NCBI RefSeq assembly: GCF_900128525.1
Contig: NZ_FQTQ01000061.1
Location: 1 to 64,000 of the forward strand
Source of the DNA: a methanotrophic endosymbiont of Bathymodiolus puteoserpentis (Logatchev)
GTDB lineage: Bacteria > Pseudomonadota > Gammaproteobacteria > Methylococcales > Methylomonadaceae
DNA length: 64,000 nt
Direction of reading: 5' to 3'
Position numbers and translations under genes: made by a program
The notes under the pieces: model-generated
What the model was told of the DNA's origin: nothing
Seen by the model: the letters and a program-made list of their open reading frames with translations, nothing else
Database searches by the model: none
In this document: positions 7,554 through 37,877 of the stretch, in pieces
Layout: the number at the start of each line of letters is the position of its first letter
How positions within the stretch are numbered: position 1 is the first letter of the stretch

Positions 7554-8099
7554 ATGACTCAAAATGCAGAAAATCTTATCTGGATTGACTTGGAAATGAC
7601 GGGCCTGGACCCCGATAATGATTTAATTATTGAAATAGCAACAGTAGTAACTGATAAATACTTGAATGTGTTAGCCACTGGTCCAGTACTGGCTGTGCAT
7701 CAAAGCGATACAGCGCTGGCAGCTATGGATGATTGGAATCAAGAGCATCATAGTAAATCTGGGCTAATTGAACGCGTTAAAGCTTCGCCGGTTAATGATG
7801 CGCAGGCTGAGCAACAAACTATTGAATTTTTAAAGCAATGGGTGCCTGCTGCTACGTCGCCTATGTGCGGGAATAGTATTGGTCAAGATCGCCGGTTTTT
7901 ATATCGCCGTATGCGTAAATTAGAAGAATTTTTTCATTATCGAAATTTAGATGTATCCACGCTTAAAGAGTTAGCGGCACGTTGGGCACCTGAAGTAAAA
8001 GAGTCATTCAAGAAAAAAGAGACGCATGAGGCATTACAGGATGTTATTGAGTCAATTGAAGAATTAAAGCACTACCGTGAGCATTTTATTAAAATTTAA
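7554..8099 (+). CDS. orn: Oligoribonuclease
   Basis: This 181-residue protein has the same length as Orn of E. coli. It is a 3'-5' exonuclease that degrades RNA fragments of two to five nucleotides, including pGpG from c-di-GMP breakdown. Residues about 10-18 carry the ExoI motif (WIDLEMTGL) and the C-terminal part holds the DEDDh-type HEAL histidine region ([11 protein letters not shown]). pGpG clearance makes it functionally relevant to the GGDEF-EAL protein at 35088. The next gene begins 11 bp downstream, so a short operon with the fluoride channel is possible. Confidence 0.95.
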
Positions 8100-31604: not shown

Positions 31605-32063
31605 ATGATAGTGCATTTTATTAATAAAAATACAGCTCAAAAGCAGCAGCGCAAAAGTATGATTTTGCTTTGTATTGTTTTGTTACTAAATGCGGGGGTT
31701 CTGAATGCTGCAGAAGTGATTGTTAGTGCTAATGTAGTGGGACAGTTAAAAGATACTCATAAATTGCAGGCAATCTTTAGTCTGCGTACTTTATATTGGC
31801 CTAATGGTGAGAAAATTAAGGTTTTTGTTTTGCCTGATAATAGTGCAGTGCATAAAGAATTTGTTAAGGAAAAACTAGGGATGTTTCCTCATCAACTACG
31901 TAGAACATGGAATCGAATGACTTATACAGGGACAGGCCAACCGCCTATTACGGTTGATTCAGTAGCGGAAATGCTAGATAAAATTCAACATACGGATAAT
32001 GCGATCGGTTATATAGACAGGAGGGTTGAGGATGAATCGATTCATTACTTTAATGCCCCGTAA
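31605..32063 (+). CDS. Small PstS-like periplasmic binding protein, copy 1
   Basis: This 152-residue protein has a signal peptide (hydrophobic MILLCIVLLLNAGVLNAA, residues 19-36). The mature part matches short phosphate-binding-protein-like domains: LQAIFSLRTLYWPNGEKIKV, FVKEKLGMFPHQLRRTWNR and TGTGQPP, closing with NAIGYIDRR. It is far shorter than a transport-competent PstS (about 300 residues). It overlaps the porin-like gene and is copied at 33387. No ABC permease or ATPase is adjacent, so a sensing role is more likely than transport. Confidence 0.8.
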   Translation: MIVHFINKNTAQKQQRKSMILLCIVLLLNAGVLNAAEVIVSANVVGQLKDTHKLQAIFSLRTLYWPNGEKIKVFVLPDNSAVHKEFVKEKLGMFPHQLRRTWNRMTYTGTGQPPITVDSVAEMLDKIQHTDNAIGYIDRRVEDESIHYFNAP

Positions 32064-33315
32064 TATCTTGTATTTTGTATGTCTGCTTTCTGGTTCTGTT
32101 TGTGCCCAAGAAATAAACGCTGAATCAGTTATAGGCGCGCCTACTCAAGAAGGTAATAAACTTTGGGAGGGTGTTAAAAAGACTTGGAGAGATGATATAC
32201 AGTTTCATGGCTTTTTAAGCCAAGGTTTATTTTCTTCGTCAGGTAATAATATCTATGGTCAAAGTAAAGACAGCGTGTCTGCTGACTCGACTGAAATAGG
32301 TTTAAATGTTTCTTATCAAGCGTTTAATAACTTAAGCTTTGCGGTACAAGGTTTGTATCGACGTGCAGGAGCTAATACTGGTGATGCTGGCGAGGTGACA
32401 TTAGACTTTGGTTTTGTGGACTTGAATCTTTTAAATTTATCAGACGGCCGCATAGGGGTGCGTGGTGGACGAATTAAAAACCCTTGGGGTTTGTATAATG
32501 AAACCCGAGATGTTGCTTTTACCCATCCGACTATTTTGTTGCCGTTGGCCTATTTTGAACGCTCTAGAACCTTGTTTTTAGCTTTAGATGGTGGGCAGTT
32601 GTATGCCGATTACAATACCTCAATGGGAGATTTCTCATTCAAATTTAATTATGGCTGGGCAAATGCTGATGATAAGGAGTTGTTAACCGCTATTATCAAT
32701 GATCCGACAGCATCGGGTTATTTAGAGTCTGACCCTAGCTTTGTCACGCAATTAAGTTATGAAATTTTGGGCGGAGAATATGTTTTCGCTTTGAGTTATG
32801 CTGAATTGAATATGAGGTACCAAGCTAAGAATATAGGGGATCCCTATGCGCAACTAGACGCAGATATTAAAAGTTTTATTATTTCAGCTCAGTATAATGG
32901 TGAAAAAATTAGTTTTACAGGCGAATATAGTTTGCAATGGAATGAATTTACAGATATTAGATTTGGAGTGCCTGATAACTCGCCTGTCAGTGAGCATTGG
33001 TATGTACAAGCAGGTTACCGGCTTTTAGATAATTTACAGGCTACGCTTCGTTATGATTCTACGGTGCAAGATAAAAATGATCGTTATGGAAAGGGCGTTG
33101 AAGCAGCCACAGGCGGAATGGTTCCTGGTCATTTGATGTATGCTCAGGATATTGTTTTTGGTTTACGTTGGGACATTACACCAGCTTGGATGATTCGAGC
33201 TGAATACCATCGTATGCATGGCGCGACTACTATTAGTTTATTGGAGAACCCTGACTTTTCAAAGATAGTAAAGAATTGGAATATCTATGCTTTACAGGTT
33301 GCCTTTAGGTTTTAA
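32032..33315 (+). CDS. Porin-like outer membrane protein, copy 1
   Basis: This 427-residue protein starts at the ATG at 32032, 7 bases after a perfect AGGAGG; an earlier in-frame TTG is rejected. A signal peptide ends at VCAQE. The mature protein shows repeated beta-hairpin strands with aromatic girdles and ends in ALQVAFRF, a C-terminal Phe typical of outer-membrane barrels. It overlaps the small binding-protein gene by 32 bp, so the two are probably translated together. The barrel may admit or hold the ligand of the binding protein. Confidence 0.8.
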   Translation: MNRFITLMPRNILYFVCLLSGSVCAQEINAESVIGAPTQEGNKLWEGVKKTWRDDIQFHGFLSQGLFSSSGNNIYGQSKDSVSADSTEIGLNVSYQAFNNLSFAVQGLYRRAGANTGDAGEVTLDFGFVDLNLLNLSDGRIGVRGGRIKNPWGLYNETRDVAFTHPTILLPLAYFERSRTLFLALDGGQLYADYNTSMGDFSFKFNYGWANADDKELLTAIINDPTASGYLESDPSFVTQLSYEILGGEYVFALSYAELNMRYQAKNIGDPYAQLDADIKSFIISAQYNGEKISFTGEYSLQWNEFTDIRFGVPDNSPVSEHWYVQAGYRLLDNLQATLRYDSTVQDKNDRYGKGVEAATGGMVPGHLMYAQDIVFGLRWDITPAWMIRAEYHRMHGATTISLLENPDFSKIVKNWNIYALQVAFRF

Positions 33316-33386
33316 TTATTTTTTACCTGTAAGTTTAAATGTGTTATCTATGTAGCCAAAAGAGTTAATCTATATAAATAGAATAA

Positions 33387-33839
33387 ATGAGATTATTTTT
33401 TATTAATAGGTATATAAAACAAAAGCGATTGAAGTCACTTTTGCTCTGTATTTCTCTATGCTTAAATGCACAGGCTGTTGATGCTACAGAAGTGATTGTT
33501 AGTGCTAATGCAGTGGGACAGTTAAAAAATTCTCATAAACTACAGGCGATCTTTAGTCTGCGTACTTTATATTGGCCTAATGGTGAGAAAATTAAGGTTT
33601 TTGTTTTGCCTGATAATAATGCAGTGCATAAAAAATTTGTTAAGGAAAAACTAGGGATGTTTCCCCATCAACTGCGTAGAACATGGAACCGAATGACTTA
33701 TACAGGGACAGGTCAACCGCCTATAACAGTGGATTCTATAGAGGAAATGCTAGACAAAATTCAACATACGAATAATGCCATTGGCTATATAGACAGGAGG
33801 GTTGAAGGTGAATCGATTCAATACTTTAATGCTCCGTAA
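33387..33839 (+). CDS. Small PstS-like periplasmic binding protein, copy 2
   Basis: This 150-residue protein is nearly identical to the product of 31605-32063 after the signal peptide; differences are mostly single substitutions (for example DNSAVHKEF against DNNAVHKKF). The signal peptide itself is diverged. The gene keeps the same overlap with its porin partner as copy 1. The divergence outside the domain suggests an old duplication kept by selection. Confidence 0.8.
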   Translation: MRLFFINRYIKQKRLKSLLLCISLCLNAQAVDATEVIVSANAVGQLKNSHKLQAIFSLRTLYWPNGEKIKVFVLPDNNAVHKKFVKEKLGMFPHQLRRTWNRMTYTGTGQPPITVDSIEEMLDKIQHTNNAIGYIDRRVEGESIQYFNAP

Positions 33840-35085
33840 TATCTTATATTTTGTGTGTTTGCTTTCTTGTTCTGTTTGTGCCCAAGAAATAGACACTGAA
33901 TCAGTTATAGGCGCGTCTACTCAAGAAGATAATAAACTTTGGGAAGGTGCTAAAAAAGCTTGGCGGGATGATATACAGTTTCATGGCTTTTTAAGCCAAG
34001 GTTTATTTTCTACTTCAGGTAATAATGTTTATGGTAAAAGTAAAAATAGCGTGTCAGCGGGTTTAACCGAAATAGGTCTTAATATTTCCTATCGAGCGCT
34101 TAAGAATTTAAGTTTTGCAGCGCAAGGTCTATATCGGCGAGCAGGGGCTACTACAGGTGATGCAGGCGAAGTGACATTAGACTTCGGTTTTGTGGATTTG
34201 AATCTTTTAAATTTACAAGAAGGTCGCATAGGGGTACGTGGGGGACGAATAAAAAATCCTTGGGGCTTATATAATGAAACTCGGGATGTTGCATTTACCC
34301 ACCCAACTATTATTTTACCTCTGACTTATTTTGAACGCTCTAGAACATTAATGTTAGCTACCAATGGAGGGCAGTTGTATGCGGATTACAATACGTCATT
34401 GGGGAATTTATCCTTTAAATTTAATTATGGTTGGGTAAATGCAGATGATAAGAATATATTAACTGCTATTACTTATGACCCGACAGCATCGGGTCATTTA
34501 AAGTCGAAACCGAGTTTTGCTACACAATTAAATTATGAAATGATGGGGGGCACATATATTTTTGCATTGAGTTATGCCGACTTAAGTATGAGTTACCAAG
34601 CTAAGAATTCTGGTGACCCTTACGCGCAGATGAAAGCAAATATTGAAGCTTTTATGGTTTCGGGACAGTATAATGGTGAAACGTTTAGTTTTGTGGGTGA
34701 GTATAGTCTTAGGTGGAGTGAATTTACAGATATTAGACTAGGTGTGGCGGATACCTCTCCTGTCAGTGAGTATTGGTATGTACAAGCAGGTTATCGGTTT
34801 GTAGATGATTTTCAAGCGACACTTCGCTATGACTCTGCAGTACAAAATATTAATGATAAATCAGGTCAAGTATTTCATGAAAAAACGGGGTTACCGGCTC
34901 AATTGACGTTTACTCATGATATTACTTTTGGTTTACGCTGGGATATTACACCAGTTTGGATGATTCGAGCTGAATATCATCGTGTTCATGGTGCGACTAC
35001 TATTAATTTATTGGATAATCCTGACTTTTCAAAGATAGTAAAAAATTGGAATATTTATGCCTTACAAGTTGCCTTTAGATTTTAA
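33808..35085 (+). CDS. Porin-like outer membrane protein, copy 2
   Basis: This 425-residue protein starts at the GTG at 33808, 7 bases after AGGAGG, in the position matching the ATG of copy 1. It has a signal peptide and the same barrel-type pattern and C-terminal ALQVAFRF. The central loops differ most between the copies, which would be expected if ligand or surface specificity diverged. The GGDEF-EAL gene begins 3 bp after its stop codon. Confidence 0.8.
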   Translation: MNRFNTLMLRNILYFVCLLSCSVCAQEIDTESVIGASTQEDNKLWEGAKKAWRDDIQFHGFLSQGLFSTSGNNVYGKSKNSVSAGLTEIGLNISYRALKNLSFAAQGLYRRAGATTGDAGEVTLDFGFVDLNLLNLQEGRIGVRGGRIKNPWGLYNETRDVAFTHPTIILPLTYFERSRTLMLATNGGQLYADYNTSLGNLSFKFNYGWVNADDKNILTAITYDPTASGHLKSKPSFATQLNYEMMGGTYIFALSYADLSMSYQAKNSGDPYAQMKANIEAFMVSGQYNGETFSFVGEYSLRWSEFTDIRLGVADTSPVSEYWYVQAGYRFVDDFQATLRYDSAVQNINDKSGQVFHEKTGLPAQLTFTHDITFGLRWDITPVWMIRAEYHRVHGATTINLLDNPDFSKIVKNWNIYALQVAFRF

Positions 35086-35087
35086 TT

Positions 35088-37877
35088 ATGCAGAAAAATA
35101 AGCACTTTTTAAGCTTAAAGTGGAAGTTTGCTTTTGGCTTAGGTGGCCTATTAATTACTCTTTATAGTGCATACGCTTACTATATTTATTATCAGGCAGT
35201 CGATAATTTTTCTAACAGTCGTGTTACAGCCCAAACTAACCAGATAAATATTGCCCAAGCTTTAACAGAAGAGTCTTTTTTTGTTTTAGATCGCTTTGTC
35301 GAGTCTATCCTATTGATACAGAGTGATGAGACAAAAACGGGGGCGCAATTGCAGCAGCTATTTGATGAGCATTGGCAGCATTGGCAAGTTATTTGGGGTT
35401 TAGAAAATGCAGCTTTTTATAACCGGCAGAGTATAGAGGTTAAACGCTGGGGGAAAGATATTCCGTCTGATTCCGAAATTATTTTACGTGCTTTTACGCA
35501 AGAAGTACCGCAACACCAACTTATTTGTGCTAAAGGGTGTTTTCAGCAAATATTGACTCCAGTTTTATTCAATTCAGAAGTGCTTGGCGTTTTAAGTGTA
35601 TCGGTAGCACTTTCAGATACTTTGTTACAGTATCAGCAAACCATGCGAAATGATTTAGGTGTGCTTATCAGTGACAATAGTCAGGCGCTATCCGCTATTA
35701 CTCATGCGAAGAAGAATATTCCCTTATGGCAGAAAGCAAGAGAAAATTATGTTTTAGAGGATTTTCTAGGGAAGGGGGTTGTTTTTATAAAAGATAGGCG
35801 GCGTTATGAATTGCGTGTTTTTCCGATTAGTAAAAATTCAAGCAGCGCCCCGTATTTCGTTATTATTAACGATATAACAGAAGATTATAAAAATCTACAA
35901 AATAAATTACTGCAATTAGGTATTATTGGTTTAGTTGGGCTTTTTCTGGTTATTTTTATCCTACTGATTAATATCCATTTTATTTTAGCAAGGGTGGCGC
36001 AATTGTCACAAGCCTTGCCTTTATTGGTACAGCATCAATATCAAAGCTTTAGGAAGAAATTAAAAAGTCAAAGCAGTACCATTTTTAATGATGAAGTGAG
36101 TCAATTAGCAGAAACTGCTGCTTATGTGGCTAAAGACTTGGAAATCTTAAGTGATGATATTGAAAAAAATACTGAGTTATTAGTCAAAAAAAGTCAGGAA
36201 TTAGAAGAAGAACGGGATTTTGTTGCCCAATTAATTGATACAGCGCCTATTTTTATTATTACGCAAAATATGCAAGGTGACATACTTACGGTTAATAAAG
36301 AGGGCTTAATGGATATGAAACTGAAGGCTGCTGAAATCATCGGTATGCCTTTTGCCAAGCTTATTTCTGATAAAGATCATTTACAAAAACTTGAACACTT
36401 AAGGCTAAATAAAGAGTCTAAAGAAATAACTTTTGATGATCGGTTGGCATTGCTAACAGAAGAGCCTATGTATCTTTCATGGATACATACTATCTTGCGC
36501 GCTAAGAATAATAGTCAAGAACCTGTGGTTTTAAGCTTAGGTGTTGATGTTTCTGAGCGCCATGTCGCAGATGAGCAATTGATTTGGCTAGCGAGTCATG
36601 ACCAATTGACTGGCTTAGGTAATCGACGCAATTTTCAGCATGAACTAGAGGCTAGGCTTGCTCTCGCGAAGCGATATAAAGAGCAACTCGCTCTGTTTTA
36701 TTTAGATTTAGATCAGTTTAAAGTTATCAATGATACCCATGGGCATCAGGCTGGTGATGAATTATTGCAAGTTATTGCCAGTGTTCTTAAAAAAGAAATA
36801 AGAGACACTGATTTACTGTGCCGTATAGGTGGGGATGAGTTTACGCTAGTTATTTCTGCTACAACGCTGGAGGGTGTGGAAATATTAGCAAATAAGTTGT
36901 TATATGCATTAACGCAAATTAAATATATTATTAATGAGCAGATTCACCCTATTAGCTTTAGTATTGGTGTTGCTATTTATCCACAGCATGGGGAAACTCA
37001 ACAAGAATTGTTGACAAACGCTGATTTGGCCATGTATCACGCTAAAAAATCAGGTCGCGCTCGCTATCATATTTTCTCTCCTGAGTTTGAATATCAAGCC
37101 GTATTAACTGAACAGTTGCGCTGGAAACATATTATTGAACATGCAATAAAACAGGATGAGTTTGTTTTGTATTACCAGCCTATACTAGATATTAAGCACA
37201 AGAAAATTAGTCACTATGAGTGTTTACTAAGAATTGTGCAGCAAGATGGCACCTTATTAATGCCTGGAGATTTTATCATTCAAGCTGAGCAAATTGGCAT
37301 TATTGACCAAATTGATCATTTGGTTTTAAGAAAGGCAATAGAGCAGCATTTAGCTTTTCAAGCAATAGGTAATAATTCGCGTTTAGCAATTAATTTATCA
37401 GGGCGCTCAATGAATGATATGGATATTCTGCCTTATATTGAAAACTTATTAAGCCAATCCGGCGTTAAACCTGAACTCATTATTTTTGAAATTACCGAAA
37501 CCTCAGCCGTTTCTAATTTTATGTCTGCTAAGTCAATGATTAAGCGTTTAAAAGCACTGGGTTGCCGATTTGCATTGGATGATTTTGGCGTGGGTTTTTC
37601 TTCTTTCTACTATTTGAAATCCTTACCGGTTGATTATGTAAAAATTGATGGTTCTTTTGTGAAGCAAATGGATGTCAGCGAAGAAGATAGAATTTTTGTT
37701 AAAGTACTAACGGAAGTTTCACAGGCTTTTGGTAAGCAAATTATTGCTGAATTTGTAGAGAATAAGGAAATTTTATCATTACTAGAGCAGCAAGGCGTTG
37801 ATTATGCACAGGGCTATTATATTAGCAAACCCATTTCTGACCCTTTGGATTTAAGTCATGTTAAAGGCCTAGAATAG
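35088..37877 (+). CDS. Membrane sensor with PAS, GGDEF and EAL domains
   Basis: This 929-residue protein has a membrane helix at about 13-33, a periplasmic domain of about 240 residues with a cysteine pair (CAKGC), and a second helix near 275-300. A linker, a PAS-like domain (near 380-490), GGDEF (near 497-655) and EAL (near 670-920) follow. The active-site GGDEF is intact and preceded by an RxxD inhibitory site (RDTD). The EAL domain has ECL in place of EAL but keeps NLSGRS, EITET, DDFG, KIDG and AEFVE. It may both make and break c-di-GMP. It follows the duplicated binding-protein/porin pairs by 3 bp and is the likely output of that locus. Confidence 0.92.
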   Translation: MQKNKHFLSLKWKFAFGLGGLLITLYSAYAYYIYYQAVDNFSNSRVTAQTNQINIAQALTEESFFVLDRFVESILLIQSDETKTGAQLQQLFDEHWQHWQVIWGLENAAFYNRQSIEVKRWGKDIPSDSEIILRAFTQEVPQHQLICAKGCFQQILTPVLFNSEVLGVLSVSVALSDTLLQYQQTMRNDLGVLISDNSQALSAITHAKKNIPLWQKARENYVLEDFLGKGVVFIKDRRRYELRVFPISKNSSSAPYFVIINDITEDYKNLQNKLLQLGIIGLVGLFLVIFILLINIHFILARVAQLSQALPLLVQHQYQSFRKKLKSQSSTIFNDEVSQLAETAAYVAKDLEILSDDIEKNTELLVKKSQELEEERDFVAQLIDTAPIFIITQNMQGDILTVNKEGLMDMKLKAAEIIGMPFAKLISDKDHLQKLEHLRLNKESKEITFDDRLALLTEEPMYLSWIHTILRAKNNSQEPVVLSLGVDVSERHVADEQLIWLASHDQLTGLGNRRNFQHELEARLALAKRYKEQLALFYLDLDQFKVINDTHGHQAGDELLQVIASVLKKEIRDTDLLCRIGGDEFTLVISATTLEGVEILANKLLYALTQIKYIINEQIHPISFSIGVAIYPQHGETQQELLTNADLAMYHAKKSGRARYHIFSPEFEYQAVLTEQLRWKHIIEHAIKQDEFVLYYQPILDIKHKKISHYECLLRIVQQDGTLLMPGDFIIQAEQIGIIDQIDHLVLRKAIEQHLAFQAIGNNSRLAINLSGRSMNDMDILPYIENLLSQSGVKPELIIFEITETSAVSNFMSAKSMIKRLKALGCRFALDDFGVGFSSFYYLKSLPVDYVKIDGSFVKQMDVSEEDRIFVKVLTEVSQAFGKQIIAEFVENKEILSLLEQQGVDYAQGYYISKPISDPLDLSHVKGLE

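Follow-up and report, generated by a model that had tools for sequence, protein, structure and literature searches.

What brings a small PstS-like protein, a porin-like barrel and a membrane-bound c-di-GMP enzyme together at one locus, when no transporter permease accompanies them? The question is raised by the window analysed here, a 64-kb stretch of Methyloprofundus-like DNA in which five genes on the plus strand (31605-37877) follow one another in the order small protein, porin, small protein, porin, receptor (Table 1). The original prediction explained this locus as ligand sensing through c-di-GMP. Its account of the layout was borne out by the coordinates: there are two tandem modules of about 1.78 kb (1782 bp between the two small-protein starts, with repeat families offset by 1776 or 1770 bp at 88-89% nucleotide identity), the small-protein and porin genes overlap by exactly 32 bp in both modules (32032-32063 and 33808-33839), and the same AGGAGG stands ahead of both porin starts, which are ATG in copy 1 and GTG in copy 2. 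The spacing between the second porin and the enzyme, given as 3 bp, is in fact 2 bp. As had been stated, a permease is missing: neither an ABC permease nor an ATPase was present among the genes read beside this small protein/porin/receptor trio, and no PstCAB lay nearby. The proposal that Orn has a special role in removing the resulting pGpG was not supported, as orn is a normal oligoribonuclease gene (7554-8099), 23.5 kb distant and with no link to the trio. Promoter and terminator predictions at the locus were no better than those for shuffled sequence.

Table 1. Features of the window locus, and of the related loci in which the small protein is joined to, or split from, a membrane anchor
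Feature	Position	Strand	Basis
Small secreted protein, copy 1, 152 aa, single PstS/PBP_like_2-type lobe	31605..32063	+	Signal-peptide-like N-terminus; PBP_like_2 matched over positions 100-189 of 267
AGGAGG ribosome-binding site of porin copy 1, within the small-protein gene	32019..32024	+	Sequence
Porin-like outer-membrane barrel, copy 1, 427 aa	32032..33315	+	Subthreshold Porin_4/OMP_b-brl/Porin_O_P; C-terminal ...AFRF
Small secreted protein, copy 2, 150 aa	33387..33839	+	80% identical to copy 1 in protein
AGGAGG ribosome-binding site of porin copy 2	33795..33800	+	Sequence
Porin-like barrel, copy 2, 425 aa, GTG start	33808..35085	+	Porin_4 E=0.0075; 77.5% identical to copy 1 in protein
Inner-membrane receptor dCache_3-PAS-GGDEF-EAL, 929 aa	35088..37877	+	Pfam domains, motifs
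dCache_3 periplasmic sensor domain of receptor, aa 81-267	35328..35888	+	E=5.1e-17
Periplasmic CxxxC of receptor (C147, C151)	35526..35540	+	Conserved in receptor family, stand-alone receptors included
GGDEF domain, aa 502-658	36591..37061	+	Pfam; GGDEF and RxxD motifs
EAL domain, aa 683-915	37134..37832	+	Pfam; motifs ECL, NLS, DDFG, KID, QG
Fused loci (two families)	L173:6240-8264; L174:4231-5937		
Split version of the fused locus	L193:2377-5712		

We searched 151 genomes of the family Methylomonadaceae separately with a profile of the small protein and a profile of the sensor part of the receptor. Fifty-seven of the 65 main-clade small proteins lay less than 8 kb from a dCache_3-type receptor, nearly all of them less than 4 kb, and the remaining eight include contig ends; counted from the receptor side, 57 of 83 matches were linked. 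Small protein and receptor share a strand in 42 of the 57 linked pairs, separated in most cases by the porin, a distance of about 1.2 kb, while in the other 15 the receptor lies on the opposite strand, beyond the porin, so the association holds across differing gene orientations. The nearest named relatives with the locus include a Methyloprofundus MAG and a Methylomonas MAG, and another MAG carries it too. Beyond the family, the trio is found in the same order in Halomonas sp. PA16-9 and in at least ten other gammaproteobacterial families, where the other neighbouring genes differ. Betaproteobacteria have a porin-like gene, a 145-aa "phosphate ABC transporter substrate-binding protein" and a dCache_1-GGDEF-EAL protein; in Caballeronia the order is a hypothetical protein, a 145-aa protein of the same name and a dCache_1-PAS-GAF-GGDEF-EAL protein. 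Across the phylum, the small-protein family was present in 43 of 299 sampled genomes. Throughout these searches, many of the genomes are fragmented MAGs, and the gene calls are mechanical ORFs. The trio, proposed for a search in other genomes, is therefore not unlinked in all relatives: the arrangement recurs in dozens of genomes and is not due to chance, and the linkage is strong and of long standing. The porin is missing from a few trios and the small protein from a few others, and some receptors stand alone, so that no part is indispensable everywhere, which counts against the input module proposed below. The window's own genome holds two further, distant small-protein genes on contigs C177 (L037:5387-8684) and C172 (L038:6642-7112), the former placed between a porin-like gene and a gene for a 538-aa GGDEF protein.

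The small protein had been proposed to capture a ligand as PstS does. Its mature form is about 115 aa long. The two window copies scored 18.1 and 13.5 bits against the Pfam profile PBP_like_2, below the gathering score of 27, and their matches were confined to approximately positions 100-189 of the 267 in the profile; 21 of 43 relatives matched the same profile at E<=0.01. When the PDB was searched with a profile of the 43 small proteins, meaningful scores were obtained only for phosphate-binding-type proteins, and the longer alignments covered the middle lobe of PstS (1twy 103-217, 7xg7 108-211). The small protein is thus like PstS/PBP_like_2 proteins in having a homologous fold segment and unlike them in consisting of the middle lobe alone; the second lobe, which in PstS completes the pocket, is absent, leaving a protein that does not have two lobes and a hinge. 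Phosphate is bound in PstS by Arg and by Ser-Gly-Thr. The R-E-D-G-S-G-T-R segment of PstS (4q8r, 4gd5) aligns to L-P-D-N-x-x-x-H in the small protein, where these ligating residues are replaced by L/P and N-x-P-x and the conserved positions are instead D78, H83 and F86. With neither the second lobe nor the phosphate-ligating residues present, this protein is unlikely to have a classical ligand pocket or to sense phosphate, and with no PstCAB nearby the name given to it by NCBI, "phosphate ABC transporter substrate-binding protein", is misleading. Residues D78, H83, F86, Q97, W102, G109, P114, G135 and Y136 are conserved in the small-protein family, as is an SGTG-x2-P segment, and we interpret the protein from these alignments as a derived single lobe with a conserved residue set of its own. 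Its predicted structure, made from an alignment of 9 sequences, was poor (pLDDT 47); lack of a ligand pocket had been named as a refutation of the original prediction, and it is the sequence that points in this direction.

Solute-binding proteins (SBPs) of known type are built of two lobes that close on the ligand between them (PMC9602780; PMC8846402), and docking of such proteins onto receptors is a known mechanism (PMC9602780; PMC8967002). In Vibrio cholerae, the periplasmic polyamine-binding protein NspS drives the GGDEF-EAL receptor MbaA (PMC8967002). A similar scheme could apply here, in which the small protein would bind phosphate, or a different anion, that enters through the porin, dock on the receptor and switch GGDEF or EAL. 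The window locus resembles NspS-MbaA in combining a secreted PBP-type partner with a GGDEF-EAL receptor in the membrane, in having no dedicated transporter and in its conserved gene adjacency, and the small protein is homologous to PstS and encoded beside the receptor with no permease. It differs in having one PstS-type lobe, in its dedicated porin gene and in a partner exchangeable for methyl-accepting chemotaxis proteins (MCPs) or kinases, and NspS binds polyamines. Residues D78, H83, Q97, W102 and SGTG-x2-P might provide a different binding site, or dimerisation might restore the cleft, but a lone lobe that has not kept the Arg and Ser-Gly-Thr of PstS makes ligand binding of the NspS type unlikely in our view. 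Because the layout is NspS-MbaA-like but the defining features of an SBP are missing, we do not class the module among SBP systems in the strict sense. SBP-activated chemoreceptors and sensor kinases likewise have a secreted PBP-type protein encoded beside a transmembrane receptor (PMC9602780); the present protein is half a PBP and is nearly always found beside a porin gene.

The barrel assignment of the porins is based on weak profile scores and on their C-termini. The best Porin_4 score of the window copies was 16.5 bits against a cut-off of 27, and LbtU gave 20.6 against 90; among 30 porin relatives, six matched Porin_4 and six matched OMP_b-brl at E<=0.01. The weak profile similarity, a signal peptide and an aromatic C-terminus (Phe, in ...AFRF) are shared with LbtU-family and Gram-negative porins (NF033652, PF13609), from which these proteins differ in that all window scores fall under the curated cut-offs and few set members match. 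A structural model from 7 sequences had repeated strands in its C-terminal half, at a mean pLDDT of 35.

Differences between the porin loops of the two copies had been taken to mean that their ligands diverged. However, dN/dS between the window copies was 0.27 for the small protein and 0.20 for the porin, values that place both copies under purifying selection, with the differences scattered; divergence of ligands finds no support here. Duplicated pairs are present also in three other genomes (G139, G068 and CSMAG_207), and in G139 and G068 copies 1 and 2 are orthologous between the two genomes, which points to long-term retention there. A single ancient duplication shared by all species was considered and is unsupported, as the window pair branches apart from the G139 and G068 copies, with no clear branching order. 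Duplication in tandem probably serves to raise dosage, or to maintain two pairs that differ slightly and feed one receptor.

Beyond close relatives, the small protein and porin are kept together while their partner varies between GGDEF, GGDEF-EAL, chemoreceptor and histidine kinase proteins. A profile-recognised porin adjoins the small protein in 33 of 41 class-level loci, and a signalling gene lies no more than two genes from the block in 26 of 41; for about a third of the class-level pairs no signalling neighbour was detected, a point against a signalling module. Signalling genes made up 25 of 80 immediate neighbours against 5 of 162 genes at least three places distant (Fisher p=2e-9, a test that kinship makes optimistic). 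An independent Pfam tally agrees with this count: the 66 immediate neighbours included GGDEF (16), EAL (14), dCache_3 (14), MCP (5) and HATPase (4), none of which reaches two members among 53 distant genes. The partners comprise dCache_3-GGDEF-EAL or GGDEF proteins, proteins that join GGDEF-EAL to other sensors, MCPs that have HAMP and an unassigned periplasmic domain, and hybrid kinases, one of which carries two SBP_bac_3 domains. In Vibrio sp. Of7-15 (L083:2964-11722), an MCP, a porin-like gene, the small protein, a hybrid kinase that carries two SBP_bac_3 domains and a protein with an EAL domain stand in a row, placing two or three outputs around a single small-protein/porin pair.

These neighbours bear on a reading in which the pair serves uptake, with the porin and small protein passing a solute to a transporter encoded elsewhere, and with a c-di-GMP enzyme that is merely co-transcribed or reports uptake. 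Porins and SBP-type proteins are common in uptake, and the two proteins here are both secreted and translationally coupled. However, the genes that recur beside the pair encode signalling proteins, none of the permease families occurs twice among the 66 immediate neighbours, and the lobe is without the classical substrate site, so that we regard an uptake function as quite improbable. The occurrence of the same pair beside chemoreceptors and histidine kinases supports a role in signalling. Of the predicted ligand sensing through c-di-GMP, a functional link between small protein, porin and receptor and a signalling role are thus upheld by linkage and partner exchange, and capture of a ligand in the manner of PstS is not.

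A tie between the small protein and the inner membrane is also suggested by two genomes (G329 and G362), where the small protein makes up the C-terminal part of a larger protein of 568-674 residues that also has a J-like domain, a single TM helix and a low-complexity linker of approximately 230-330 residues. We did not see an HPD motif in the J-like domain of these fusions. The gene that follows encodes a barrel-like protein of about 370 residues with an aromatic C-terminal residue. In a third genome (G353), the J-like TM protein, the barrel-like protein and a free small protein are encoded by three neighbouring genes. Fusion and fission of this kind would indicate that the small protein is functionally tied to a partner in the inner membrane, and with so long a linker the tethered lobe could reach towards the outer membrane. 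Other long open frames were considered as fusions; most were spurious in GC-rich genomes, and those of G329 and G362 alone hold up.

The window receptor scored above the Pfam cut-offs for dCache_3 (62.7 bits, cut-off 25.7; E=5e-17), GGDEF (158 bits; 2e-46) and EAL (237 bits; 3e-70), with a weak PAS match. Its motifs are intact (RIGGDEF, I-site RDTD, YECLLR, NLS, LDDFG, KID and QG), and with the GGDEF, RxxD and EAL motifs in place the protein could both synthesise and degrade c-di-GMP. Outputs differ among its relatives, which have GGDEF only, a degenerate GGDEF or degeneration of both domains, with the sensor kept. This decay of the output while the input stays is counted here in favour of the small protein and porin being an input module. 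Two intact trios (L052 and L053, in G027 and G052) have degenerate GGDEF and EAL domains, as in LapD-like c-di-GMP receptors, which are not enzymes. A mirror-tree comparison tied the small protein more closely to the sensor than to the enzymatic domains, a difference that was gone when degenerate enzymes were left out, and the comparison is therefore given no weight here.

A CxxxC motif is nearly invariant in the periplasmic part of the receptor family, stand-alone members included. This is compatible with a receptor that itself senses envelope or redox state via dCache and CxxxC, the porin and small protein being co-regulated envelope-maintenance genes. Such a role for the receptor leaves unexplained why the same pair occurs beside MCPs, kinases and J-like anchors whose sensor domains differ, and we judge it very improbable. 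Eight receptors of the dCache_3/CxxxC family (L155, L157, L158 and L161-L165) stand alone, without small protein or porin; in two loci (L156 and L159) a receptor accompanied by a porin without the small protein has lost CxxxC. The motif was also considered as a docking mark for the small protein, an idea rejected because the motif is present in stand-alone receptors too.

The reading that we favour, with somewhat better than even confidence, is that the small protein and porin are the input, and the inner-membrane receptor the output, of an envelope-signalling module in which the half-protein acts as a periplasmic adaptor. The porin would be located in the outer membrane, and the small protein, as a lone PstS-type lobe, would touch the porin or its cargo and also contact the periplasmic domain of the inner-membrane receptor. 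With the dCache_3-PAS-GGDEF-EAL output of the window, the signal would alter how c-di-GMP is made or broken down; in other bacteria this pair is attached instead to chemoreceptors, histidine kinases or GGDEF-only proteins. It is from sequence and gene order that we infer these physical contacts, the direction of the signal and the effect on c-di-GMP. A broader version, which we offer tentatively as a possibility, is a general porin-coupled cassette in which the half binding protein would read the state or cargo of its dedicated porin and pass this to interchangeable outputs, the J-like anchor included.

A description of the small-protein/porin/receptor cassette was not found in the open-access literature, and a review of c-di-GMP inputs reports that SBP_bac_3 alone has been studied within the PBP clan and does not mention a porin (PMC8846402). 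The recurring pair with its exchangeable switches suggests an undescribed route by which signals pass inwards from the outer membrane. In known binding-protein signalling the ligand carriers are full two-lobed proteins, and a single conserved lobe working with a porin and exchangeable receptors would differ in logic, in that an outer-membrane pore would be part of the sensor. In Beta- and Gammaproteobacteria this would explain many orphan genes named "phosphate ABC transporter substrate-binding protein", and it would supply a testable input for the c-di-GMP receptors of methanotrophs.
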